This document shows, in pieces, positions 3,638 to 40,611 of a stretch of DNA of 55,349 nucleotides; positions within the stretch are counted from its first letter, which is position 1, and each line of letters begins with the position of its first letter. The DNA lies in the IMG/VR virus record IMGVR_UViG_2124908035_000001, positions 1-55,349 of that record. One strand, written 5' to 3'. A model generated the notes under the pieces. It did no database searches. It was not told the origin of the DNA and was given only the letters and a program-made list of their open reading frames with translations. A program made the position numbers and the translations under genes. Origin of the DNA: a virus.

Positions 3638-3960
3638 GCAAACCCATGACGCCATCGATATCCTCAACAGACGCCGACAAGACTGCTCGCATGATGGTCA
3701 ACTGGCGCAATGAGTTGCTTTTGAAAATGGGCGAAGCTGAATACCGACCAATGATCGCCGGCTTTATATTGGAACTCCAGGCAGTAGCTCGCTCGAAAAA
3801 CATCTCTATTCTTAAGGCTTTTGAGGCACTGTGTACTAAACCACTTGCCGATGGGGAAATGCTCCTCGTAGGAATTTTCAGTGCGGCCGTTGTTGAAGTG
3901 TACGAACTTGAATGGTGCCAGAGAGGGACGCGGAACAAGCTGCCGAAGGTGCCCGCATGA
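3634..3960 (+). CDS. Hypothetical helical protein
   Basis: A 108-aa, probably all-helical soluble protein of unknown function with no recognisable motif. It starts in an ATGA overlap with the Gp37-like gene and ends in one with the next gene. Confidence 0.65.
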   Translation: MSKPMTPSISSTDADKTARMMVNWRNELLLKMGEAEYRPMIAGFILELQAVARSKNISILKAFEALCTKPLADGEMLLVGIFSAAVVEVYELEWCQRGTRNKLPKVPA

Positions 3961-4454
3961 AAGCCCCCTGGGTAGTCGCCGCCGGCAAGGTTGGCGAGAC
4001 AGCGCACTGCACCCGATGCGGCGAAGGGCTCACCATCAACATGCCCCAACGGATCGAGGTCGCACTCGCTGCGATGCGAGCTTTCGGGAAGTGTCATGCG
4101 AAGTGCAAACCGGGAGACTATCAGGAACCAGAGATTACCGCCTTGAACTGGCCCCAGTCCCGAGACACCGGGGTAAGCTCCGCAACCATCTGGCAAGCCT
4201 TCACGGGCCAGGCGCTCTATGAGCACAACGACGTGCCGCAAGACCCTGACGACTTCGGACGCTGCTACCGGCTTCTGAAGCTCCGCCCTGAATGGGAAGC
4301 CGAACTATCGGATGTGGCCGACGTGTTCCCGGCGTGGAAGCCCTACGTCATCAAGTGGCCGAAGCTCAAAGAACTGTACGAAGAGGCGCTTAGAACTGGA
4401 GACGGGGAACCCATGTACGAGTTCATGCAGAAGATGAGGGAGAGCCGTGATTGA
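3957..4454 (+). CDS. Hypothetical protein with N-terminal zinc site
   Basis: A 165-aa protein. CTRCGEGL near residue 19 and CHAKC near 46 suggest a Cys-based zinc site; the rest is mostly helical and charged. ATG 3957 overlaps the previous stop. Function unknown. Confidence 0.7.
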   Translation: MKAPWVVAAGKVGETAHCTRCGEGLTINMPQRIEVALAAMRAFGKCHAKCKPGDYQEPEITALNWPQSRDTGVSSATIWQAFTGQALYEHNDVPQDPDDFGRCYRLLKLRPEWEAELSDVADVFPAWKPYVIKWPKLKELYEEALRTGDGEPMYEFMQKMRESRD

Positions 4455-4986
4455 AGCCCGCGAACGTCCGATTATCTTCAGTGGACCGTCTGTGATTGCA
4501 ATTCAGCAGGACCGCAAGACGCAGACGCGGCGGGTTATTCGCAAGCCGGAGACGTACACCAAGATCCGTGATTGTGCCTACTGCTGCACCTGCGGAGATC
4601 CAGGAGACCGACTCTGGGTGAGGGAGACGTGGGATTTTGGACTATACGGAGATGTCTCGAAAGGTCCGTTCGTGGTGTACAGAGCGGACGAAGAAATGTG
4701 CGGTACGTCGTGGCGATCTTCGATGTTTATGCCCCGAAAGTACTCGCGCCTTCTCTTGGAGATCGCAGACGTTCGCGTGCAGCGGGTACAGGAGATCGAC
4801 GAAGCCGACGCCCAACGCGCTGGTGTGCCAATGGCCGCTGGTTCATCAAGCCACGACGCGGATCAAGACATGGTGCTACGTAGGGACGGCAAGCGCTGGT
4901 TCCTTTGCGACGCTTATAAACTGCGCCGCGCCTACCCTGAAGCCTTTGCGGCCCCGGCGGTGGAGCGGAAGGAGGACGGGGGATGA
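4447..4986 (+). CDS. ASCH-like domain protein
   Basis: A 179-aa protein. IIFSGPSVIAIQQDRKTQTRR at the N-terminus, GDRLWVRETW in the middle and RLLLEIADVRVQRVQEI are hallmarks of phage ASCH-related proteins, which have a PUA-like RNA/nucleotide-binding fold. CAYCCTCGDPGD is an inserted Cys cluster. The start is GTG 4447, overlapping the preceding gene by 8 bases. A role in RNA binding or modified-nucleotide handling is inference from the fold. Confidence 0.8.
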   Translation: MIEARERPIIFSGPSVIAIQQDRKTQTRRVIRKPETYTKIRDCAYCCTCGDPGDRLWVRETWDFGLYGDVSKGPFVVYRADEEMCGTSWRSSMFMPRKYSRLLLEIADVRVQRVQEIDEADAQRAGVPMAAGSSSHDADQDMVLRRDGKRWFLCDAYKLRRAYPEAFAAPAVERKEDGG

Positions 4987-5117
4987 GATACGCATACACC
5001 GTACTTGCAACATTGCACAGTTTGGCGCTTCCGTTTGTACGCTCTGAGTGGAGGATACCTATAGTATTACTTGGTGTAATGTTTGCCATCCTCGCGGTGG
5101 CGTGGAGGAAGGGATGA
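4983..5117 (+). CDS. Micro membrane protein
   Basis: A 44-aa protein with one hydrophobic helix (IPIVLLGVMFAILAVAW) and the C-terminus LAVAWRKG. ATG 4983 overlaps the previous stop. Its last 27 bases are repeated exactly at the end of the next gene. Confidence 0.6.
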   Translation: MRYAYTVLATLHSLALPFVRSEWRIPIVLLGVMFAILAVAWRKG

Positions 5118-5191
5118 TAGCACAACTTGGATTTCTTATACTTGGGCTGATACAAGGGTTTTTACTCGCGGTGGCGTGGAGGAAGGGATGA
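5091..5191 (+). repeat. 27-bp direct repeat pair
   Basis: 5091-5117 and 5165-5191 are identical (CTCGCGGTGG...AAGGGATGA). Each copy contains the end of a micro-gene, a GGAGG ribosome site and the start of the following gene. The duplicated unit therefore carries a complete coupling junction. Confidence 0.85.
5114..5191 (+). CDS. Micro membrane protein
   Basis: A 25-aa peptide that is almost one hydrophobic helix (MIAQLGFLILGLIQGFLLAV) and ends AWRKG. It is linked by ATGA overlaps on both sides. A 27-bp duplication (5091-5117 and 5165-5191) gives it the same tail as its neighbour. Confidence 0.55.
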   Translation: MIAQLGFLILGLIQGFLLAVAWRKG

Positions 5192-5304
5192 AACCACAGG
5201 GTCCAGGTTGGCAAAAAGAAAACTATCCTTGTCCGTCTTGTGGTTCGGGGGAGTATTGCTGGCGGCTGAAAGAAGACGACGAAGGCCACGAGAACGAGGT
5301 ATAG
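5188..5304 (+). CDS. Small zinc-binding-like protein
   Basis: A 38-aa protein with CPSCGSGEYC, a possible zinc knuckle, and an acidic tail. ATG 5188 is preceded by GGAGG from the 27-bp repeat. Function unknown. Confidence 0.55.
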   Translation: MKPQGPGWQKENYPCPSCGSGEYCWRLKEDDEGHENEV

Positions 5305-5309
5305 GACTG

Positions 5310-5648
5310 ATGCTGAAGCTCGTTCTAGCCTGCCACAAACACCCCGGCTACCACCCATCGAAGGGTCCAAACGCGATCAAAGGCGGCTGCGAGTTCTGCC
5401 AACGACTGCTTGAGATCGGCCGGGAAGTGGCGGCCCTGAAACGGAACGGATCGAATGGAACCTGGAAGGCGTCCGGTCAAGAGTTGCACATTCCGCTCGT
5501 GCTCACCTACCGATCCAAGACCCCAAAGAGCATATCCGGGAAGTACGAGAACGAAGCCCAACCGATGCTGTTTCCAATCGAGACACCTCCAGTTGCACGA
5601 GAGATTTTAGACCCGAAACGCCAGAGACGCAAAGCCGCCAAGGTATGA
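5310..5648 (+). CDS. Small phage-type protein with Cys/His motif
   Basis: A 112-aa protein. CHKHPGYHPSKGP and CEFCQRLLEI near the N-terminus resemble small conserved phage proteins with a metal site. The C-terminus is basic (PKRQRRKAAKV). Function unknown. Confidence 0.65.
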   Translation: MLKLVLACHKHPGYHPSKGPNAIKGGCEFCQRLLEIGREVAALKRNGSNGTWKASGQELHIPLVLTYRSKTPKSISGKYENEAQPMLFPIETPPVAREILDPKRQRRKAAKV

Positions 5649-5651
5649 GAG

Positions 5652-5921
5652 ATGCCAGAGACACCCGAGAATGGAAACCCAGAGTCAGAGCCACGCGCCA
5701 GCACTTCCAGAATCTACCTTTCCCCTACCCATAGAATTCGGGTGTGGATCAATTCCGATGGCACTGTAGGCCATTCCGCGAAGGTCAAAGAGGAACCCTT
5801 GAGCCACATCGGAGCGGGGCAGGCAATGGTCGCATACGCCGAGAAGCTCCACAAACGTCTTTCGACCGCTCAACTGTGGCTTGCAACCGCAAGGGCCGGT
5901 AACTGGGAGACTCCCCAATAA
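5652..5921 (+). CDS. Hypothetical protein
   Basis: An 89-aa soluble protein of unknown function. The middle looks beta-rich (IYLSPTHRIRVWINSDGTVGH) and the C-terminus helical. It starts 3 bases after the previous stop. Confidence 0.6.
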   Translation: MPETPENGNPESEPRASTSRIYLSPTHRIRVWINSDGTVGHSAKVKEEPLSHIGAGQAMVAYAEKLHKRLSTAQLWLATARAGNWETPQ

Positions 5922-5924
5922 TCC

Positions 5925-6545
5925 ATGCGGCAAGAGCTGCCATCGATAACCGAAGTGTGGAGACGACTCAGAGGACAAGACCCGGTTAGGAAACGTGTCC
6001 CCGCGCTCTGGCGAGAAACCAAAGATCGCAACGTGAGTTTGGACGACTCGAAAGGCTGCTACTTCGACTTCGTTTCAGGGACCGGCGGAGGAATTCTGGA
6101 CCTGGTGATGTTGGCCCGTGGATCAAGCCGTAGCGAAGCGTTCAAATGGCTTGCCCTTGAATTCAACCTTGAGTCGAAAGATTTGACCCCAGTAGAGCGC
6201 AAAGAGAATGCGGAAGCCCGGCAGATCGGAAAGATTCTGGCACGAGACGCCCTCTGGTGGTGGATGGCGCGATGCTCCGAGTTGGAAGACCAGAAGCGTG
6301 AGATCATTCAAGCCGGCGCGAACCCGTTCGACCTCGCACCCGTCGCCCGCGAATTATACCGAATACAGGCACTCGAAGCAGTTGGGATCGTATCCGAATT
6401 CGCCAGACACGAAGCCTCGGACCCTGAAGCCTGCGAGGAGTTGGTTCATGCCGGCCGCACGTGGGCGAACCTCTGCAAATGGGCCGTGAAGCGAATCATC
6501 CGCAAGATCCGCAACCAACAACTGAAAGCGGACCATGCAGCCTGA
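5925..6545 (+). CDS. Primase-like CHC2-fold protein
   Basis: A 206-aa protein. Residues 25-75 (LWRETKDRNVSLDD, CYFDFVSGTGGGILDLVMLA, AFKWLALEF) follow the pattern of the CHC2 domain that reads template DNA in DnaG-type primases, but without a full zinc-ligand set. A helical region follows. It directly precedes the VirE/VapE ATPase, overlapping by 11 bases, so the two probably form the primase-helicase of the element. Confidence 0.75.
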   Translation: MRQELPSITEVWRRLRGQDPVRKRVPALWRETKDRNVSLDDSKGCYFDFVSGTGGGILDLVMLARGSSRSEAFKWLALEFNLESKDLTPVERKENAEARQIGKILARDALWWWMARCSELEDQKREIIQAGANPFDLAPVARELYRIQALEAVGIVSEFARHEASDPEACEELVHAGRTWANLCKWAVKRIIRKIRNQQLKADHAA

Positions 6546-7851: not shown

Positions 7852-8230
7852 GACAATCTTATTAGCCCGTTTTCATACTGGGACACCGGAACTCCTTTCT
7901 TTTCATGGCCGTGTCCCAGTACAAAACGGTGTCCCAGTATACTGGGACACACTTAACTCCTTTCGTTTCATGCGCGTGTCCCAGTGTCCCAGTAAAATAC
8001 GTGTTCGCGCATGTATACGCGAGGAAATCCCCCCAAATGCGGGGGGGGTCTTCCAGACGGTACAGGGCTTTTTTCAAGAAAAGACTGGGACACTGGGACA
8101 CGGACATGAAAACAAAGGGCTTCCGGTGTCCCAGTATGCAAAAAGACTGGGACACCGACTGGGACACGGGCTAAAAGACTGGGACACGGACCTAGTTTGT
8201 CGCAAATTTAAGCAAATTCGATGAAGAAAC
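7797..8230. other. Candidate replication origin with iterons
   Basis: No convincing gene lies between 7852 and 8220. Twelve exact ACTGGGACAC sites lie in both orientations: plus at 7877, 7941, 8084, 8092, 8146, 8158, 8178; minus at 7911, 7929, 7976, 7984, 8126 (left ends). Two form a perfect 22-bp palindrome (7929-7950), and two pairs overlap by 2 bases. Three sites belong to a longer 31-bp unit. AT-rich DNA borders the array at 7797-7875 and 8188-8230. Placement beside the replication ATPase supports an iteron origin; dense operator sites are the alternative. Confidence 0.75.
7890..8122. repeat. 31-bp compound iterons (three copies)
   Basis: 7890-7920 and 7955-7985 (plus) match at 28 of 31 positions; 8092-8122 is an inverted copy matching the first at 27 of 31. 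The conserved layout is a pyrimidine-rich CTCCTTT part, TTTCATG and then GTGTCCCAGT. Two protein contacts per unit are likely. Confidence 0.75.
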
Positions 8231-8451: not shown

Positions 8452-8801
8452 ACCACCCTCCCAGAATGCCCTCAGCAGTAGAGGACGACCGCGGCCCCAT
8501 GCTCCGATACAAGGCCCTCGTGGAGATGGCCGAAAACGGACCTACCACCCTGGACCTCGACCGGCACAGGTACAAAGCTACAGCCAAAGGAATCTGCATC
8601 GGCTACTTCAGTTCGCTCCGCTTGGCGATGAACGAGGTAGACGCGATAACCCCGATTCGGCGGAATACCCTATGGGAGGTTCCCGAGATCGTGCCCGACT
8701 GCAATAGTTACGTGGTCGATGTGGTCAAGAGCATAGTATACGTTCGCATGGCCCAGGAAGTGAGGCAGGTAGTCGAGGAAGAATTCGAGGCGGCCGGATG
8801 A
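8448..8801 (+). CDS. Hypothetical protein preceding helicase-methylase
   Basis: A 117-aa protein with 4-base overlaps at both ends. The stretch LDLDRHRYKATAKGICIGYF suggests a small beta domain and the C-terminus is helical (VRQVVEEEFEAAG). It probably acts with the helicase-methyltransferase it is coupled to; the role is unknown. Confidence 0.65.
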   Translation: MNHPPRMPSAVEDDRGPMLRYKALVEMAENGPTTLDLDRHRYKATAKGICIGYFSSLRLAMNEVDAITPIRRNTLWEVPEIVPDCNSYVVDVVKSIVYVRMAQEVRQVVEEEFEAAG

Positions 8802-11800
8802 CTCCGCAACTTCGAGTGGACGACCGGCCCGACCTTATCAGGACGGATGGAACACGAACCGATGAGTGGTGCAGGTTATTGGGAGAGTACGACCAGATCG
8901 GCGAAGAGGCGGCAGTGTGGGCGACCACAAGGAAAGTTCAGATGAGCACAGGATACCAGGACTTTTTGAAGAGCAAGGCGGTAGTGGCCATCGACCGGGG
9001 CTACTCTGGACCTTTGAAGTTCACAGCCGACCTGAAACCGCACGCCGCGGATATCGCCCGCTGGATGATTCAAGGCGGGAACCGGGCTTGCTTCGCATCG
9101 TTCGGGCTCCACAAGACGAGCATTCAACTTCAGGTGTGCGAATCACTGCTCGACTCCGGCTGCAAGTCGGGACTCATCACCTGTCCGCTGGGAGTCCGAC
9201 GCGAGTTCATCAAAGAGAGCACCGCCCGGGGCTTCAAACGTATGCCGGTCTACGTCAGGACGAACGACGAGTACGACGAGTTGCGAGCCGAAGGGCACGA
9301 ACTGTTTTTGACAAACTACGAGCGCATCCGCGACGGCGACCTTGACCCCAACCGCTTCGACATCTGCTCGCTTGACGAGGCGGCGTGCTTCGCCGCCGGG
9401 ACTCTAATTGACACCCCAAGCGGCCCCGTTCCGATTGAGCGGCTTCAAATCGGAGATAGGATCTACAACGCCGCTGGTATTGACAAAATTAGCAAAAAAC
9501 ACGTGACGGCGGTAAACTTTGCCGTTAGAATAGAGGTAGATGGAAGACGCATCCTCAACAGCCCCGACCATCGGTATTTCACAAAGCGCGGCTGGATACG
9601 TGCCGCCGAACTACAACCCGGCGATTCCCTTGTACAAGCAACCTCGGCCATGCGACTGGTGCGGGTCGGAAATCATTCCCAGGACGCCACAGGAAGGCAG
9701 GAAGCATTTCTGCAACACATCCTGCTCAGCGAAATGGCGAACGTCGCTACCCGCGTTCAAGATAAACCCGAACGCGAAATGGCGACAGCCGCGCCAATGC
9801 GAACGGTGTGGAAAGACCTACTTTCTGCATTACGATTCAGAACTGAAGCGTCGGTATTGCAGCCGCCGATGCTCAGGAATAGCGCAAATGGAAGTGCCGG
9901 AGCGCAGGGCCACGACGGCGATTGTCTGTCATACGCCGGCAGTTCGGAAACTTGCAGGGCAGCGAATAGCAGCATGGTGGGCAGCGGGGAGCGAAAAAGC
10001 GCAGTTGAACAAAAAGCGTTTAGCGGACATGGGCAGGAATGCGACCAAGGAGACACACGACAAAGTTTCGGCAACTCTCAGACGGATTGGCCACCGGCCG
10101 AAGTGGATTGGCGGGAAGGGCCGCGGTATGACCGTTCCGCAGAGGCTTTTGCTGGAGTCCCTGGAGCCAGGTTGGGTACCGGAGCATCCTGTCCCAGTGA
10201 ACCCGCGCCGGCCCGATCTTCCAACCTGCCTGTATTTGGACCTCGCTATTCCGATTTACAAAATTGCAATCGAAGTGGACGGCGGGACGCACCGGATGAC
10301 AATCTGGAAACAGAGAGACGCGAAGAAAGAAGCCTACCTCTGTTCTCTCGGGTGGACAGTGTTGAGATTTTGGAACGAGGACATCCTGAGTTGGAAAGCC
10401 TCCGGGATGCCAACGGGAAGCTCTATTTCCACGACCTTACAGCAACACGGCATCCGTCATACTCAGTGAATTCGATACTCGTTCACAACTGCCTCCGCTC
10501 TTTCGGATCGAAAACCTATCAGACGTTTCTGCCGCTCTTCAACCAGGTGCCCTACAAGTTCGTAGCGACCGCGACCCCGAGCCCGAATCGGTTCAAGGAG
10601 CTGATCCACTACGCCGGGTTCCTCGGAATCATGGACACCGGCCAAGCCCTCACGAGGTTTTTCAAACGGGACAGCAGCAAGGCCGGCAACCTCCAGATCC
10701 ACCCGCACAAGTTGAAGGAGTTCCAACTGTGGCTCTCGACATGGGCCGTTTTCGTTCAGACCCCGAGCGATCTTGGATATTCCGATGAGGGATACGTTCT
10801 ACCGCCGCTTGAGATTCACCGGCATCGTTTGCCGGTCGATCACGCCTCAGCGGGGTATGACTCATGGGGGCAAGGAAAACTTTTGCGGAATGCCGCAACC
10901 AGTCTTAGCGACGCGGCGAAAGAAAAGCGGGACAGCTTGGGAATACGGACGTTCAGACTCAAGGAGATCATCAATGGCATTAGACAAAGCGGCATATCAG
11001 AAACAGTATCGGGAAAAGAACAAGGTCATCCTAACGGCAAAGAAGAAAATAAGGGGCCGGGCGGATTATCTGGCGAACCGCGAGAAATACAAAGCCAAAA
11101 ACAAAAAATGGAGAGAGGAAAATCCGGAACGGTACAAGGCTCTGACGAAGCGGTACCAGTTGGCCAATCGAGAGAAGGTAATGGCGGCAAGCAAGAGATG
11201 GTATGCGGAACACAGGGACCGAGCCAGGCTCTCAAACCGAGTGAGGAAGTTGAGGGATTACGGTCTCACTCAAGAGACCTTTCAGGAACGTCTGGAGAAG
11301 CAAAATGGAATCTGCCCGATCTGCCTCGGAATTATGCGGACTCCGGCAGTGGACCACAATCACCAAACCGGAGCAGTGCGGGGGCTTCTGTGCCAACAGT
11401 GCAATGCGGCAATCGGGCTATTCAAGGACAACCCGGAAATGCTTCAGCGGGCGATTCGCTACCTCAATTCATCGTGTGGTGCGAACTCAACGATGAACAG
11501 CGAGCCGTAGAAAAGTTGCTTGATGGGATGGGAGTTTCGTACACCTCCCTTGACGGTTCGATGTCGATTGAAAGCCGCGAGGAGCAGTTGGAGCACTGGT
11601 TGAACCGAGACACCGTCGCTCTGGTCACCAAACCTGTGATGTACGGATACGGGGCCAACCTGCAGCAGTGTCACATTTCGATTTTCTTCGGGATCGGCTA
11701 CAAGTTCAGCGATTTGGTACAGGCAATTGCGCGTACGCAGAGGTTTGGACAAGAGCACACGGTAGACGTTCACCTGATCTACACCGAATCGGAAGATCCG

Positions 11801-13180
11801 ATTTACGATGCTCTGATGGTGAAATGGAAACAGCATGAGGAGTTGCAAGGTTCTATGTCGAAAATCATCCGAGAGTGCGGACTGAATCAGATCAAGGCCG
11901 GCGCCGAAATGCAACGGAGTATCGGCGTGCCGCGGCAGGAAGTCAAAGGCTCACTCTTCACGGCGGTCTGCAATGACAACGTGATGGAGTTGCAGGGTCT
12001 TGAATGTGTGGACCCGGAGAGCACCCGACGAGTGCAGCACCTGATAACCGTTGCCGGCCAGAACGGGGATAAGTTGAAGGTGTCCCCCTCCGACTTGGGG
12101 ATTCGCACCGGAGCACACCGATTCGCAGACAACTCGGTAGACCTGATCGTGACCTCTGTCCCTTTCAGCGACGCATACGAATACACGGAGACCTACAACG
12201 ACTTCGGCCATAACGACGGGGACAAAGGATTCTTCGAGCAGATGGACTTCTTGACGCCAGAACTTATCCGCGCCCTGCGGCCCGGACGGCTCTACTGCGT
12301 CCACGCGAAAGACCGGATTGTGTACGGCTCCGTCTCAGGCGACGGCATGTACACGGTCAATCCGTTTTCAGACAAATGTGTAGCTCACCTGATTCGACAT
12401 GGTTTGAGGTATTGCGGCCGGATCACAGTGGTAACGGACGTGGTTCGGGAGAACAATCAAACCTACCGCCTCGGTTGGACCGAGAACTCGAAAGACGGGA
12501 CCAAGATGGGAGTGGGGAGCCCGGAGTACATTTTGCTTTTCAGGAAGCTGCCGACCGACACGACACGAGCCTATGCCGACGTGCCAGTTGTGAAATCTAA
12601 AACCGATTACACCAGGGCGAGATGGCAGTTCGATGCACACTCCATGTGGAGATCGAACGGCAACCGCTTCCTCCGGCCCGAAGACCTCGGTTCAATCCCC
12701 ATGGACAAGTTGCGGAAGCTCTGGCACCAGTACAGTGCCTCGCACGTGTACGACTACCAAGAGCACGTCTCATTGGCCGAGGAGATGGAGGCCCGCGGGA
12801 TACTGCCGAGCACGTTCATGGCGCTCGACCCGCCGAATCCAAATTCACCTTGGGTGTGGGACGACGTGGCCAGGATGCGGACTCTAAATTCAGAGCAGGT
12901 AAGGAAAAATCTGACGATGCACATTTGCCCGCTTCAGCTCGACATCTGCGAGCGGCTGATAGAGCGGTACTCGAATCCGGGAGATCTGGTCCTTGATCCA
13001 TTTGGCGGCGTTGGTTCGGTTGCATATTGCGCCGTATCGATGGGCCGAAAGGCATTCACGATTGAGCTAAACGAGCAGTATCACCGGGATGCGGTTGGAT
13101 ATTGCCGAGCCGCCGAAATGAAAGCCTCCATGCCCACATTGTTTGATCTTGAACCGATACAGCCAGAGATCGAGACGTAG
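8798..13180 (+). CDS. Helicase-DNA methyltransferase fusion with intein and second insertion
   Basis: A 1460-codon open frame. Residues 60-196 are the first half of an SNF2-like helicase domain (FASFGLHKTSIQL as motif I, DEAA as motif II). Residues 197-564 are an intein. From 565 the helicase resumes (CLRSFGSKTYQTF; ATATPSPN). It is interrupted again at about 725-889 by sequence encoding an endonuclease in another frame, then continues with FIVWCELNDEQ and QAIARTQRFGQ (motif VI). Residues from about 1094 form a beta-class DNA methyltransferase: TSVPFSDAYEY in place of the usual SPPY motif, then DPFGGVG near 1400. Related fusions occur in phages. Whether one continuous polypeptide is made is doubtful because of the second insertion. 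Confidence 0.85.
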   Translation: MTPQLRVDDRPDLIRTDGTRTDEWCRLLGEYDQIGEEAAVWATTRKVQMSTGYQDFLKSKAVVAIDRGYSGPLKFTADLKPHAADIARWMIQGGNRACFASFGLHKTSIQLQVCESLLDSGCKSGLITCPLGVRREFIKESTARGFKRMPVYVRTNDEYDELRAEGHELFLTNYERIRDGDLDPNRFDICSLDEAACFAAGTLIDTPSGPVPIERLQIGDRIYNAAGIDKISKKHVTAVNFAVRIEVDGRRILNSPDHRYFTKRGWIRAAELQPGDSLVQATSAMRLVRVGNHSQDATGRQEAFLQHILLSEMANVATRVQDKPEREMATAAPMRTVWKDLLSALRFRTEASVLQPPMLRNSANGSAGAQGHDGDCLSYAGSSETCRAANSSMVGSGERKSAVEQKAFSGHGQECDQGDTRQSFGNSQTDWPPAEVDWREGPRYDRSAEAFAGVPGARLGTGASCPSEPAPARSSNLPVFGPRYSDLQNCNRSGRRDAPDDNLETERREERSLPLFSRVDSVEILERGHPELESLRDANGKLYFHDLTATRHPSYSVNSILVHNCLRSFGSKTYQTFLPLFNQVPYKFVATATPSPNRFKELIHYAGFLGIMDTGQALTRFFKRDSSKAGNLQIHPHKLKEFQLWLSTWAVFVQTPSDLGYSDEGYVLPPLEIHRHRLPVDHASAGYDSWGQGKLLRNAATSLSDAAKEKRDSLGIRTFRLKEIINGIRQSGISETVSGKEQGHPNGKEENKGPGGLSGEPREIQSQKQKMERGKSGTVQGSDEAVPVGQSREGNGGKQEMVCGTQGPSQALKPSEEVEGLRSHSRDLSGTSGEAKWNLPDLPRNYADSGSGPQSPNRSSAGASVPTVQCGNRAIQGQPGNASAGDSLPQFIVWCELNDEQRAVEKLLDGMGVSYTSLDGSMSIESREEQLEHWLNRDTVALVTKPVMYGYGANLQQCHISIFFGIGYKFSDLVQAIARTQRFGQEHTVDVHLIYTESEDPIYDALMVKWKQHEELQGSMSKIIRECGLNQIKAGAEMQRSIGVPRQEVKGSLFTAVCNDNVMELQGLECVDPESTRRVQHLITVAGQNGDKLKVSPSDLGIRTGAHRFADNSVDLIVTSVPFSDAYEYTETYNDFGHNDGDKGFFEQMDFLTPELIRALRPGRLYCVHAKDRIVYGSVSGDGMYTVNPFSDKCVAHLIRHGLRYCGRITVVTDVVRENNQTYRLGWTENSKDGTKMGVGSPEYILLFRKLPTDTTRAYADVPVVKSKTDYTRARWQFDAHSMWRSNGNRFLRPEDLGSIPMDKLRKLWHQYSASHVYDYQEHVSLAEEMEARGILPSTFMALDPPNPNSPWVWDDVARMRTLNSEQVRKNLTMHICPLQLDICERLIERYSNPGDLVLDPFGGVGSVAYCAVSMGRKAFTIELNEQYHRDAVGYCRAAEMKASMPTLFDLEPIQPEIET
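9386..10489 (+). other. Intein inserted at helicase motif II
   Basis: The splice points are clear: N-extein DEAA, then Cys1 (codon 9386) of CFAAGTLIDTPSGPVPIERL (block A). Block B is LNSPDHRYFTKRGWIRAAEL. Block F/G is LYFHDLTATRHPSYS then SILVHN, with penultimate His and terminal Asn at 10489, and C-extein Cys (codon 10490). It sits in the ATPase active site, a common intein position. The middle (about 9650-10337) has no endonuclease in this frame. It is the shadow of an endonuclease gene in the +1 frame but remains free of stop codons. Confidence 0.9.
9540..10469 (+). CDS. Vsr/EDxHD-like homing endonuclease nested out of frame in the intein
   Basis: Up to 309 aa, read +1 relative to the helicase. 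The first 25 residues overlap intein block B, so the true start may be later. Two Cys4 zinc motifs follow (CDWC...CNTSC; CERC...CSRRC), and the nuclease-like core is IAIEVDGGTHRM and GWTVLRFWNEDIL, as in Vsr-related homing nucleases. It ends 20 bases before the intein ends. It presumably cuts intein-less helicase genes. It could be translated from its own start (AGAGG precedes ATG 9540) or reached by frameshifting. Confidence 0.8.
   Translation: MEDASSTAPTIGISQSAAGYVPPNYNPAIPLYKQPRPCDWCGSEIIPRTPQEGRKHFCNTSCSAKWRTSLPAFKINPNAKWRQPRQCERCGKTYFLHYDSELKRRYCSRRCSGIAQMEVPERRATTAIVCHTPAVRKLAGQRIAAWWAAGSEKAQLNKKRLADMGRNATKETHDKVSATLRRIGHRPKWIGGKGRGMTVPQRLLLESLEPGWVPEHPVPVNPRRPDLPTCLYLDLAIPIYKIAIEVDGGTHRMTIWKQRDAKKEAYLCSLGWTVLRFWNEDILSWKASGMPTGSSISTTLQQHGIRHTQ
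10974..11510 (+). CDS. Endonuclease VII-like HNH nuclease nested out of frame in the helicase
   Basis: A 178-aa protein read +1 relative to the helicase. AAGGAG (10961-10966) stands 7 bases before ATG 10974, so it has its own ribosome site. The N-terminal half is basic with repeated NREKYKAKNKKW-like helices. The C-terminal half carries CPICLG, the catalytic DHNHQTGAVRGLLC and CQQCNAAIG, as in recombination endonuclease VII-type homing nucleases. No intein blocks surround it, and its 3' end overlaps resumed helicase codons (from about 11466). Confidence 0.85.
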   Translation: MALDKAAYQKQYREKNKVILTAKKKIRGRADYLANREKYKAKNKKWREENPERYKALTKRYQLANREKVMAASKRWYAEHRDRARLSNRVRKLRDYGLTQETFQERLEKQNGICPICLGIMRTPAVDHNHQTGAVRGLLCQQCNAAIGLFKDNPEMLQRAIRYLNSSCGANSTMNSEP

Positions 13181-19407: not shown

Positions 19408-20385
19408 ATGCCACAAATTCTAGACGTGAAAGGCGCGGCCCGCGCCAATTCCTACATGCTCCCGGTTGAAGCCTTGAACGCCGGCGAGAACTCGCGCAAG
19501 ATCCCCGACACCGACGTAGCGGACATGGTTCAAGACATCTTGGTCCGCGGTCAACTTCAACCCATCCTGGTCCAGTGGAACACCGATAGCCAACTGGAGA
19601 TCGTAGACGGGCACCGGCGTGTACTGGCAATCACCAAGATCAACGCCGATCTGAACCTCAACGCCGGAGTTACGCTCAAGGTCGAATGCAAACGGTTCTC
19701 AGGCAAGCCCGAGGACAGCTTCGCGGCATCAGTTGCGGCCAATCTCAAGCGCAAAGACCTGAGTCCCATCGACCGGGCCTACGACATCCTCATGCTTGAG
19801 AAACAGGGCAAGACCCGTCAGGAGATTGCCAAACTCATGGGAATCTCCGAGCCGCTCATCAGCCGGAGCTTGAAACTTCCGAAGTTGCCGGCCGCCATCC
19901 AACGGAAGGTCCATACAGGGGAGATCGCCGCCGAGACGGCCTACGAACTGGCCGACATGAAACCGGAGGATCGGGCCAAAGCGATGGAGCCGACGCCGGC
20001 CGAGACAAATACCGCCGCTCCTGAAACGCATTTTGAGGCTCCTGAAGCGCATTTCGAGACGCCCGGTACGCCTATCGGGGCACCTGAAACGCATATTCCG
20101 ACAGCGGAACCGCATCAAAAGCCAACCAAACCGGCGAAAGTGACCCGTGAGCGAATCCGTCAAGTGAAACGCGACAAAGCAGAACGCGGCGAAGAGACCC
20201 AAGGTCCGACAGGGCGCAGCCGCAAGGAAATCCGCACCCAGTTCGAAGACTGGGCCAAGCGCGACGACCAGACCATCGAAGAGTCTATCCAGAAGCTCTG
20301 TGCAGCCATCGTAAAGTTTATCGACGGCGATATCGGAGAGCGGGCGATTCTCACCAGAATGCGGGAGTTGAAAGAGGGGGAGTAG
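19408..20385 (+). CDS. ParB-like protein
   Basis: A 325-aa protein. Residues 20-110 form a ParB/Srx-type domain (GENSRKI, GQLQPILV, IVDGHRRVLAI), followed by SPIDRAYDILMLEKQGKTRQ and a helix-turn-helix (EIAKLMGISEPLISRSL). Residues about 200-235 hold near-repeats of an APETHF-like heptad, then a basic C-terminal region. It may act in partition or gene control. No ParA is encoded and no parS was recognised, so a regulatory role is equally possible. Confidence 0.85.
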   Translation: MPQILDVKGAARANSYMLPVEALNAGENSRKIPDTDVADMVQDILVRGQLQPILVQWNTDSQLEIVDGHRRVLAITKINADLNLNAGVTLKVECKRFSGKPEDSFAASVAANLKRKDLSPIDRAYDILMLEKQGKTRQEIAKLMGISEPLISRSLKLPKLPAAIQRKVHTGEIAAETAYELADMKPEDRAKAMEPTPAETNTAAPETHFEAPEAHFETPGTPIGAPETHIPTAEPHQKPTKPAKVTRERIRQVKRDKAERGEETQGPTGRSRKEIRTQFEDWAKRDDQTIEESIQKLCAAIVKFIDGDIGERAILTRMRELKEGE

Positions 20386-37875: not shown

Positions 37876-40611
37876 ATGCCCTACGTACCACAAGGACCGT
37901 TCCAGATTCAAAGCCCCACCGGAGCATGGATGCACCTTATGGGGGCGTCCTGCAATTATCCCGGTCCTCACCAGAGGGGCACGGATCGTTATGCCGCCTG
38001 GTCCGATGCAGACAGCGAAGCTACGGGTAGAATGCACGTGTGGCGCAGTGCGGATGCTGGGGTAACTTGGGCTGGGCAGGATGTGGCAGCGATGCCACAA
38101 ACAGGGAATCCCTCCGGCGAGGGAGGGGCTGTCTGCACTGAGCGCCTGAACGCGGACACCATCCGTATTGCCTACACCGCAGCCGCAACAGGTGCTCCCG
38201 CCGTGCGGGACTTTGATATGGCGTCCAACGCACTTGGACCGATTCTCTACAGCGGGATCGCAGGTACCAGAGTGCAGGGCTACCATCGCAGCACCGTAGC
38301 CGCCGAAGATAGACTGTTTGTGGACACGCCAGCCGGTTTCGGGCTGGGCAGCGGCATCTCACTGTACCGCCATGACGGATCTGGCTTCTTGCCGGAAATT
38401 GTTATATCGGACAATGTTTCTCCGCTGAACACCTTCGGCATGGTAGAAGCGCTCTTCATGGACCCGGCGGGTACAAGCCACGTTTTCTACAGCGTATTGC
38501 CACGGCTGACCCCCTTTACGCCAAGAACCGTTTACTATCGACAGGTGGGCGCTTTAGGTGCGATGACCGCTCCGGTGGTGGTCTACACCTACAATGTGAG
38601 CATCACGGTATCCAAACCCACGTTTGGGTTCCCCGCCCTGCTCGGGACCATGCTTGTAGTTCCGTTCCCGAAAGAAAACGGTGGCGACTACACCGGCTCC
38701 ATGCTGGTGCTAGACCCGTACACTTCACCGGCTCCAATTATCAGCCAGGTTGACCTGCCAACACAGTATTTGGGCCAATTCGGGACAATTCAAGCTTCGC
38801 CTCTCGGTTCTCAGATGTACCTCTGGTGGCTGGAAAACCTGGACCTGGACGGAGTGACCCCGCTCTCCCGGATCATGTACACGACGTACAACGGCGGCGC
38901 GATCCCGGCCCCTACGATCTTTCACGATGAACTGGCAAACCCATCCTTCACCCCCATAATGGTCCCGGACACCAGTTTGGACGGGGCTTACAGTGTTGCC
39001 GTCTCTGGGAACCTCGCCTACGTGGCGGCCTACGACGGGAACGCCCTCACAATAGTCGATGTGACGAACCCAGCCGTCCCGATAATCGTGGGGACGGTCA
39101 CAGATGTGGCCTTGACTGGAGCTACCGGAGTCGCCGTGGTGGGGAACTTCGCCTACGTGACGGCCGGAGGGTCGAATGCCCTCACTGTGGTAGACGTGAC
39201 CAACCCGGCGGCTCCCGTGGTAGTTGGGACAGTCACGGATGCAAGTTTAGCGGGGCCTAACGGAGTCGCCGTATCGGGGAACTTAGCCTACGTGGCGGCG
39301 GGCGGAGCAAATGCCCTCACCGTAGTTGACGTGACAAACCCAGCCGCCCCGGTGGTAGCTGGAACGGTCACGGATGCGAGTTTGAATGGTGCTCAAAATG
39401 TCGCCGTCTTTGGGACTTTTGCTTATGTGACAGCAGCTACCGCCAACGCCCTCACAGTGGTTGACGTGACAAACCCGGCCGCCCCAGTGGTCGCGGGGAC
39501 AGTCACCGATGCCTCTTTGACATGGTCCATTGGAGTCGCCGTCGCGGGGAGCTTCGTCTATGTGGCATCTTACGGAGCCAACGCCCTGACCGTAGTCGAT
39601 GTGACTAATCCAGCCGCTCCGGTGGTTACAGGATCGGTCGCAGACGGGAACTTGGATGGCGCTAGCAGCGTTGCTCTTGCGGGGAACTTAGCCTACGTCG
39701 CGGCCCAAAATGTAGGGTACTTGGCCGTGGTCGATGTGACCAACCCGGCAGCTCCGGTGGTACTAGGAACGGTTCCATGCGACTCTGCCGGTGTCGCCGT
39801 TCTGGGCAATCATGCCTATGTGGCTACGGGAGTGAATCTCGCCGTGGTCGATGTGACCAACCCGGCAGTTCCGCTGGTGGTTGGCGCAGTCGTTATTGCA
39901 ACCCATCCGGTAGCCGTTCCAGGCGCGGCGATGAGCTACCTGTCCCCGCCGTTCATGGACGTTGTCGATCCGATGCTCTTGGTCAGTATGCTTGGAGGAA
40001 CAGGCTCCTATTACTGGTTTTCCATTGCAGGCCCGCCACCTCCGCCAGGAACACCCTTCCAGCCGCTCACGCAAGGTTCGAGGCGGATGCACGTCCTGGT
40101 ACCGAACCGCTTTGATGGGTGTCTCGCGGCGGATGTTCTCAAACAGCAGAATGCGAAACCGCTCATCGGATGTTGCCGGCCGGAAATTGTCCAGAACATC
40201 GGATGGGTGAAAGCCTCTGGAAACTCCGTACCCTTCCGTAAGGTGGCGGCGATCCCGACTCCCTTAGCAGCCTCGGGAGATGTGCAAGTACTGGAGTTCC
40301 AGGTTCCCACGGGCTACGACGGCCTGATCTCAGGGCTCTTCCACCTCTACACCGGCCCGGGGTTCATGACAGGCTCCGGGGACATCGAATGGCGGATAAA
40401 GGTCAACAAGACCTACGCGGTCCACCTCGGTCAAATTCTGGTAACGCTTGGAAGTCAGCGCGGGGCCTATTCAATCGATGGAGGCATCCCGGTTCAAAGT
40501 GGGCAACGAATTCAGTACATTGTGAACGCACCGAATCTGAGCGGCGGTCTCCTGCCCCTAAACTCTCAGATTGTGTGCGGATTGGAGGGACTCTTCTATG
40601 CGCGTCAATAA
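37876..40611 (+). CDS. Large propeller spike protein (Asp-box, LVIVD repeats, virion domain)
   Basis: A 911-aa protein. The N-terminal 350 residues include an Asp-box (RSADAGVTW), as in sialidase-like propellers. About residues 370-680 hold seven 43-residue LVIVD-type repeats (NALTVVDVTNPAAPVV...NLAYVAAGG), a second propeller. The last 160 residues duplicate the 37252 protein's domain (VPTGYDGLISGLF, GSGDIEWRIKVNK). This is the layout of a receptor-binding or surface spike carried on a conserved virion module. No signal peptide. Confidence 0.75.
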   Translation: MPYVPQGPFQIQSPTGAWMHLMGASCNYPGPHQRGTDRYAAWSDADSEATGRMHVWRSADAGVTWAGQDVAAMPQTGNPSGEGGAVCTERLNADTIRIAYTAAATGAPAVRDFDMASNALGPILYSGIAGTRVQGYHRSTVAAEDRLFVDTPAGFGLGSGISLYRHDGSGFLPEIVISDNVSPLNTFGMVEALFMDPAGTSHVFYSVLPRLTPFTPRTVYYRQVGALGAMTAPVVVYTYNVSITVSKPTFGFPALLGTMLVVPFPKENGGDYTGSMLVLDPYTSPAPIISQVDLPTQYLGQFGTIQASPLGSQMYLWWLENLDLDGVTPLSRIMYTTYNGGAIPAPTIFHDELANPSFTPIMVPDTSLDGAYSVAVSGNLAYVAAYDGNALTIVDVTNPAVPIIVGTVTDVALTGATGVAVVGNFAYVTAGGSNALTVVDVTNPAAPVVVGTVTDASLAGPNGVAVSGNLAYVAAGGANALTVVDVTNPAAPVVAGTVTDASLNGAQNVAVFGTFAYVTAATANALTVVDVTNPAAPVVAGTVTDASLTWSIGVAVAGSFVYVASYGANALTVVDVTNPAAPVVTGSVADGNLDGASSVALAGNLAYVAAQNVGYLAVVDVTNPAAPVVLGTVPCDSAGVAVLGNHAYVATGVNLAVVDVTNPAVPLVVGAVVIATHPVAVPGAAMSYLSPPFMDVVDPMLLVSMLGGTGSYYWFSIAGPPPPPGTPFQPLTQGSRRMHVLVPNRFDGCLAADVLKQQNAKPLIGCCRPEIVQNIGWVKASGNSVPFRKVAAIPTPLAASGDVQVLEFQVPTGYDGLISGLFHLYTGPGFMTGSGDIEWRIKVNKTYAVHLGQILVTLGSQRGAYSIDGGIPVQSGQRIQYIVNAPNLSGGLLPLNSQIVCGLEGLFYARQ
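39044..39890 (+). repeat. LVIVD repeat array in coding DNA
   Basis: Seven imperfect units of about 129 bases in frame, each encoding a V-D-V-T-N-P core. Divergence between units is mostly silent or conservative. They are coding repeats, not CRISPR. Confidence 0.8.

Follow-up and report, generated by a model that had tools for sequence, protein, structure and literature searches.

A helicase-methylase gene in the viral sequence analysed here (the window, 55,349 nucleotides, the IMG/VR record IMGVR_UViG_2124908035_000001 from position 1 to 55,349) very probably carries a mobile intein in which a separate gene, superimposed in the +1 frame on the non-essential middle, encodes the homing endonuclease. 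The host gene forms a single open frame of 1460 aa (ORF translation), in which the methylase part lies C-terminal to the SNF2-type helicase part, and it has two interruptions, the intein and a second out-of-frame nuclease. The features of the gene, the intein and the nested endonuclease are as follows.

8798-13180, + strand: host gene, a fusion of an SNF2-type helicase and an N4/N6 DNA methylase (phrog_16 / N6_N4_Mtase); uninterrupted relatives exist
9386-10489, + strand: intein of 368 codons (host codons 197-564), preceded by the N-extein ...LDEAA
9386-9651, + strand: N-terminal splicing (Hint) part with blocks A and B (CFAAGTLID..., SPDHRYFTKRGWIRAAELQPGDSLV), from a Hint_2 match (E 2e-8) and alignment
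9656-10339, + strand: host-frame passenger peptide between the splicing halves, stop-free and hydrophilic, with conservation no greater than the endonuclease imposes
10340-10489, + strand: C-terminal splicing part with blocks F and G (DSVEILERGH...YFHDLTATRHPSYSVNSILVHN), from the Intein_splicing alignment; left edge approximate
9630-10469, + strand: nested homing endonuclease ORF, +1 to the host, with stop TGA at 10467-10469 and candidate start TTG 9630, homologous to TTG 674 of the relative L291
9651-9725, + strand: first Cys4 motif of the endonuclease (CDWC...CNTSC), from ORF translation and alignment
9798-9872, + strand: second Cys4 motif (CERC...CSRRC), from ORF translation and alignment
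10239-10376, + strand: EDxHD/Vsr-fold catalytic core (D204, E215-x-D217-G-x-x-H221, D230, GW..LRFWN)

The splicing elements all lie in one frame with the host gene. The intein begins with Cys, ends in His-Asn and is followed by Cys as the +1 extein residue, the junctions (marked by slashes) reading LDEAA/CFAAGT...VNSILVHN/CLRSFG or, in a longer form, LDEAA/CFAAGTLIDTPSGP...SPDHRYFTKRGW...VNSILVHN/CLRSFG. The Pfam Hint_2 match in this frame is above the cut-off, and the Intein_splicing match (E 1e-5) is below it, with an alignment that reaches codon 564. An uninterrupted homologue that lacks exactly this insert is available in the nearest host-gene relative (L170; 79% identity over an extein-only query and 89-93% around the intein site), which reads LDEAA/ILRSFG at the corresponding position; this relative also has an in-frame stop in its helicase part, at about 5550-5560. 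Structure prediction of the host-frame intein from its single sequence (AF2) reached a pLDDT of only 37 and was uninformative. A search of 9300-11700 against Rfam returned no intron family, either at the gathering threshold or at E <= 1, and a reading as group I or II intron ORFs is rejected on that result.

The nested reading frame, which stops 20 nt upstream of the intein end, matches DUF559 (PF04480) in Pfam with an E of 6.5e-10 (profile hit, E 2.6e-11), and E215, D217, H221 and D230 are conserved in the endonuclease alignment. In an AF2 model built from 30 relatives the core has a pLDDT above 90, and Foldseek places this modelled core closest to the DUF559 structure 3hrl (probability 1.00) and to the catalytic domain of I-Bth0305I (3r3p; probability 0.99), with Vsr as a weaker structural match. 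I-Bth0305I, deposited as a mobile intron protein, shares the E, D, H, D pattern as well as the catalytic fold, whereas its sequence match to the window endonuclease is weak (E 0.6). By modelled fold and by residues, the nested nuclease is thus predicted to be an EDxHD-type homing endonuclease with a Vsr-like core. Given its amino acids and the host codon usage, the probability that the host frame would stay open across it is 0.00025 over 258 codons, and chance openness is excluded for the window. The initial annotation had placed the intein blocks and both splice junctions in the helicase frame, had found that frame stop-free through the endonuclease DNA and had read an endonuclease with two Cys4 motifs and a Vsr-like core in +1; the profile matches, the junctions, the 1460-aa open frame and the modelled fold bear out each of these readings.

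The same frame relation recurs well beyond the window. A tblastn search of phages with the window endonuclease matched 40 records, in which the matched genes are annotated as helicase, P-loop, coil-containing or hypothetical proteins. The +1 endonuclease is present in isolate phages of Vibrio (K391, 1.088.O, CP-T1 and 104E43.1), Corynebacterium (phi673) and Pseudomonas (MR14), and in all six the helicase CDS is a single ORF that includes a CF.AGT...HNC intein, inserted at motif II (DE^C). A search of viral contigs with the window endonuclease as a single protein gave no match; relatives were gathered by alignment-based scans of viral and bacterial contigs followed by frame analysis, which yielded 228 distinct endonucleases. 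As many as 173 of them are read +1 relative to a host frame that is open, and 171 of these have block G in that host frame. In six further family members (L043, L111, L306, L316, L337 and L357) the host frame is closed. The remaining 49 are distant stand-alone DUF559 genes; these chromosomal genes share the catalytic domain with the window endonuclease but stand alone, and their -1 frame is closed in 49 of 49. The set L117-L167 consists mostly of such stand-alone genes and serves as a negative control only. Block G was found in the endonuclease's own frame in none of the 228, so there is no in-frame relative among them. A second scan, anchored on the intein N-domain alone and blind to the endonuclease, recovered 80 inteins, comprising 76 of the overlapping type, four mini-inteins of 132-140 aa without endonuclease and none with an in-frame endonuclease. 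The arrangement occurs in well over 150 contigs, with labels that include Chloroflexi, Verrucomicrobia, Elusimicrobia, Riflebacteria, Planctomycetes, Myxococcales, Clostridia, Dependentiae, Acidobacteria and Bacteroides, among others. The overlapping layout of intein and endonuclease is the rule in a large and apparently unrecognised intein family found in phages and bacterial genomes.

The distribution of the intein is patchy. The closely related host gene of L170 has an empty site, while L291 carries the same intein at the same site even though its exteins are only 46% identical to those of the window; since the close relative is empty and the distant one occupied, this pattern would fit homing. 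Split and free-standing forms also occur. A contig of a Lacinutrix MAG (L111, 3211-5490) holds a fractured helicase gene with a split intein and the same EDxHD endonuclease: the Hint-N half stops at 3783, the endonuclease runs to 4444 and the Hint-C half is readable from ATG 4324. The halves of the intein thus lie on separate polypeptides in L111 alone, and in the window the host frame is open throughout. In three other relatives (L043, at 3995-6090, L337 and L357) the endonuclease is free-standing, directly upstream of an intein-less helicase gene, and L043 has its helicase frame broken precisely at DE^CHH, the would-be intein site. Because of these split and free-standing forms, the link between overlapping inteins and fractured genes is real, and one stop in the host frame together with a restart could convert the overlapping form into the split form.

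These forms bear on the proposal, made in the initial annotation, that the intein of the window is an intermediate linking fused and split arrangements, for which it had asked that in-frame, split and empty versions be sought. Split (L111) and empty (L170) versions were recovered, along with the free-standing forms, and the split side of the proposal stands; the fused side finds no support, as in-frame relatives number 0 of 228 and there is thus no evidence for a fused ancestor. The corresponding explanation takes the overlap for a passing stage on the way from a fused endonuclease to a split intein whose endonuclease is free. It is compatible with the main mechanism and draws on L111, where the same endonuclease accompanies a closed host frame and a Hint-C restart at ATG 4324. 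Nevertheless, this explanation is rather unlikely, as the overlapping state, with 173 distinct endonucleases, far outnumbers the others and the in-frame state was not found. The overlap is a standing, stable architecture of a large family and not a rare transitional state.

For an intein with an overlapping endonuclease gene, expression would proceed as follows. The ribosome would translate the whole helicase frame, including the stop-free passenger opposite the endonuclease, after which the two Hint halves would fold together and excise themselves to leave an intact helicase. The endonuclease would be made as a protein of its own, in most relatives by internal initiation inside the intein, as start codons and Shine-Dalgarno sites suggest. 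As the distribution suggests, it may then cleave, at motif II, helicase alleles that lack the intein, which would let intein and endonuclease be copied into them together. The overlap would persist because any stop in the host frame would disrupt the helicase, and homing would be lost with damage to the endonuclease frame.

Among the 83 divergent copies, 50 have a start codon ahead of the first Cys motif with a Shine-Dalgarno match of 4 or more bases, against 14% of internal start codons, a comparison that somewhat favours the start set since the best of several candidates was used. The Shine-Dalgarno sequence is often GAGGT, within the intein's own DEV codons. In the window, the candidates are TTG 9630, GTG 9600 and ATG 9540 with a poorly spaced GAGG; unlike the DEAD-helicase clades, the window and most of the SNF2-helicase clade (L291-L307) have no convincing ATG with Shine-Dalgarno before the endonuclease. 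Translation of the window endonuclease may thus involve non-AUG initiation or a frameshift. Programmed +1 ribosomal frameshifting after the N-terminal splicing half, giving a fusion of N-extein, Hint-N and endonuclease, would account for the lack of a good start codon in the SNF2-helicase clade and for an endonuclease frame that is open well into the Hint-N part. It is nonetheless an improbable explanation: the junctions in the clade of the window share no slippery motif, a fusion would not require the ATG and Shine-Dalgarno that many relatives have right before the first Cys motif, and the same endonuclease is also found free-standing.

Returning to the overlapping-gene reading, the two frames are under unlike selection. 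The host frame is open in 81 of the 83 divergent copies, against 0.5 expected under synonymous recoding with host codon usage and 0.1 with the endonuclease's own codon usage, and none of the 83 has an open third frame. Of endonuclease codons with a final T followed by AA, AG or GA, 970 are expected and 0 are seen, a deficit that restates the openness (such junctions create TAA, TAG or TGA in the host frame) and is not an independent test of it. Across 46 independent pairs, differences at endonuclease codon positions 1, 2 and 3 amount to 2744, 2349 and 4404, the third position being the first position of the host, and host-frame amino-acid identity is 0.302 against a null of 0.290 from the endonuclease alone. 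The window and L291, compared at the same site of the same host gene, are 49% identical in the endonuclease and 31% in the host frame, and the passenger peptide is hydrophilic (mean GRAVY -1.0). In view of the third-position excess and of a host identity near the null, selection acts on the protein of the endonuclease frame; the host-frame peptide is a passenger, for which mainly the absence of stops is maintained. That only the host frame is functional (for example, as an unknown intein domain) and the endonuclease frame a chance by-product is very improbable: the host identity lies very slightly above the null, but the endonuclease matches a curated family, is modelled with a confident fold, has invariant catalytic residues and shows the third-position substitution excess, and the whole segment is absent from the endonuclease-less mini-inteins. 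An assembly or sequencing frameshift, such as the indel near 9650 or 10340 named in the initial annotation as a possible refutation, or a decaying intein with an endonuclease newly out of frame, has a negligible probability even though the window is a single contig of a metagenomic virus, and is rejected for the family, because the same relation holds in Vibrio, Pseudomonas and Corynebacterium isolate phages, in 173 distinct endonucleases and across more than 150 contigs, with strong selection on both frames and no in-frame relatives.

The second interruption of the host gene lies outside the intein and was absent from the initial annotation; its features are given below.

10974-11510, + strand: out-of-frame nuclease ORF of the recombination endonuclease VII family (EndoVII), +1 to the host and outside the intein (Pfam E 5e-23)
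10961-10966, + strand: Shine-Dalgarno-like AAGGAG, 7 nt upstream of ATG 10974, formed by the host codons for KE and present in the uninterrupted L170
10976-11464, + strand: host-frame insert of about 163 codons due to the EndoVII ORF, in a linker of variable length among relatives

The host frame is open across this ORF as well (P 0.001), with no splicing blocks at its ends and no Rfam intron. An out-of-frame EndoVII ORF occupies the same site in two relatives (L185 and L205), and a third (L175) has an HNH-like ORF out of frame further upstream, each with an open host frame. A comparable system is the ShiLan domain (Arsenault, Gosselin and Gogarten, 2025; PMC11855218), in which an endonuclease ORF occupies another frame of a phage methylase or helicase-methylase gene (including the helicase-methylase Pacc40 gp60), the host frame is kept open and the distribution is homing-like. 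No intein or intron is reported for that system, its endonuclease is of the HNH type, and the insert is proposed to remain in the protein as a loop (PMC11855218). As an out-of-frame endonuclease in an open host frame without intein or intron, 10974-11510 is an additional member of these hidden endonucleases (PMC11855218). The nested ORF at 9630-10469 shares with ShiLan the out-of-frame endonuclease in a methylase or helicase-methylase gene, the open host frame and the homing-like distribution; it differs in that its insert is an intein and its endonuclease has the EDxHD fold, whereas ShiLan has no splicing element and an HNH endonuclease. Pacc40 is presumably the record EU816590. Since the overlapping gene sits in an intein, its passenger peptide should be spliced out.

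Apart from the helicase-methylase gene, the window contains clustered direct and inverted copies of ACTGGGACAC-like units at 7870-8191 (51-nt inverted arms at 90%); the cluster follows closely on the downstream side of a primase/helicase gene and is a possible replication origin or regulatory array. A tandem repeat at 39122-39626 (period 135 nt, 3.7 copies) lies within a 911-aa ORF (37876-40611). A gene for a ParB-like protein (phrog_1033) at 19408-20385 hints at a plasmid-like or partitioning phage.

Set against known mobile inteins, the arrangement is neither fused nor split. Fractured genes, reportedly an observation of Dassa et al. from 2009 (a paper cited in PMC12350094), are said to have an intein split into halves and, between them, a free EDxHD homing endonuclease. 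They share with the window a phage-type gene, an intein and an EDxHD/Vsr-like endonuclease as a separate reading frame; their intein is split, whereas that of the window is contiguous, with an open cis-splicing frame and the endonuclease overlapping in +1. In canonical bifunctional inteins of the PI-SceI type, blocks B and F flank the endonuclease, which is a domain in frame with the splicing part (PMC3943268). The window shares with these the Hint blocks A, B, F and G, insertion at a conserved motif and mobility by a homing endonuclease, but its endonuclease is a different protein from a different frame, as in all 173 open-framed relatives and with 0 of 228 in frame. A literature search found no account of an out-of-frame endonuclease inside an intein; its coverage is incomplete and earlier notice is possible. 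With that proviso, the new element is the overlapping, instead of fused or split, layout of a mobile intein and an EDxHD endonuclease.

Descriptions of intein homing endonucleases otherwise treat them either as in-frame domains or as free proteins that accompany split inteins. We give about even chances to the broader proposition that contiguous inteins with a +1 overlapping EDxHD gene constitute a third standing class of mobile inteins, widespread in phage helicases and a natural source of the fractured split-intein arrangement, for which a single host-frame stop and a restart would suffice. In this family, two genes share about 600-800 bases under unlike demands, one at the level of the protein and the other for the absence of stops only, a layout that explains how an endonuclease can ride an intein free of folding constraints from it. 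The family gives a concrete short route to split inteins and supplies many new inteins whose long middle segment is replaceable. Furthermore, gene callers hide such nucleases within “helicase” annotations, as in Vibrio phage CP-T1 and Corynebacterium phage phi673.
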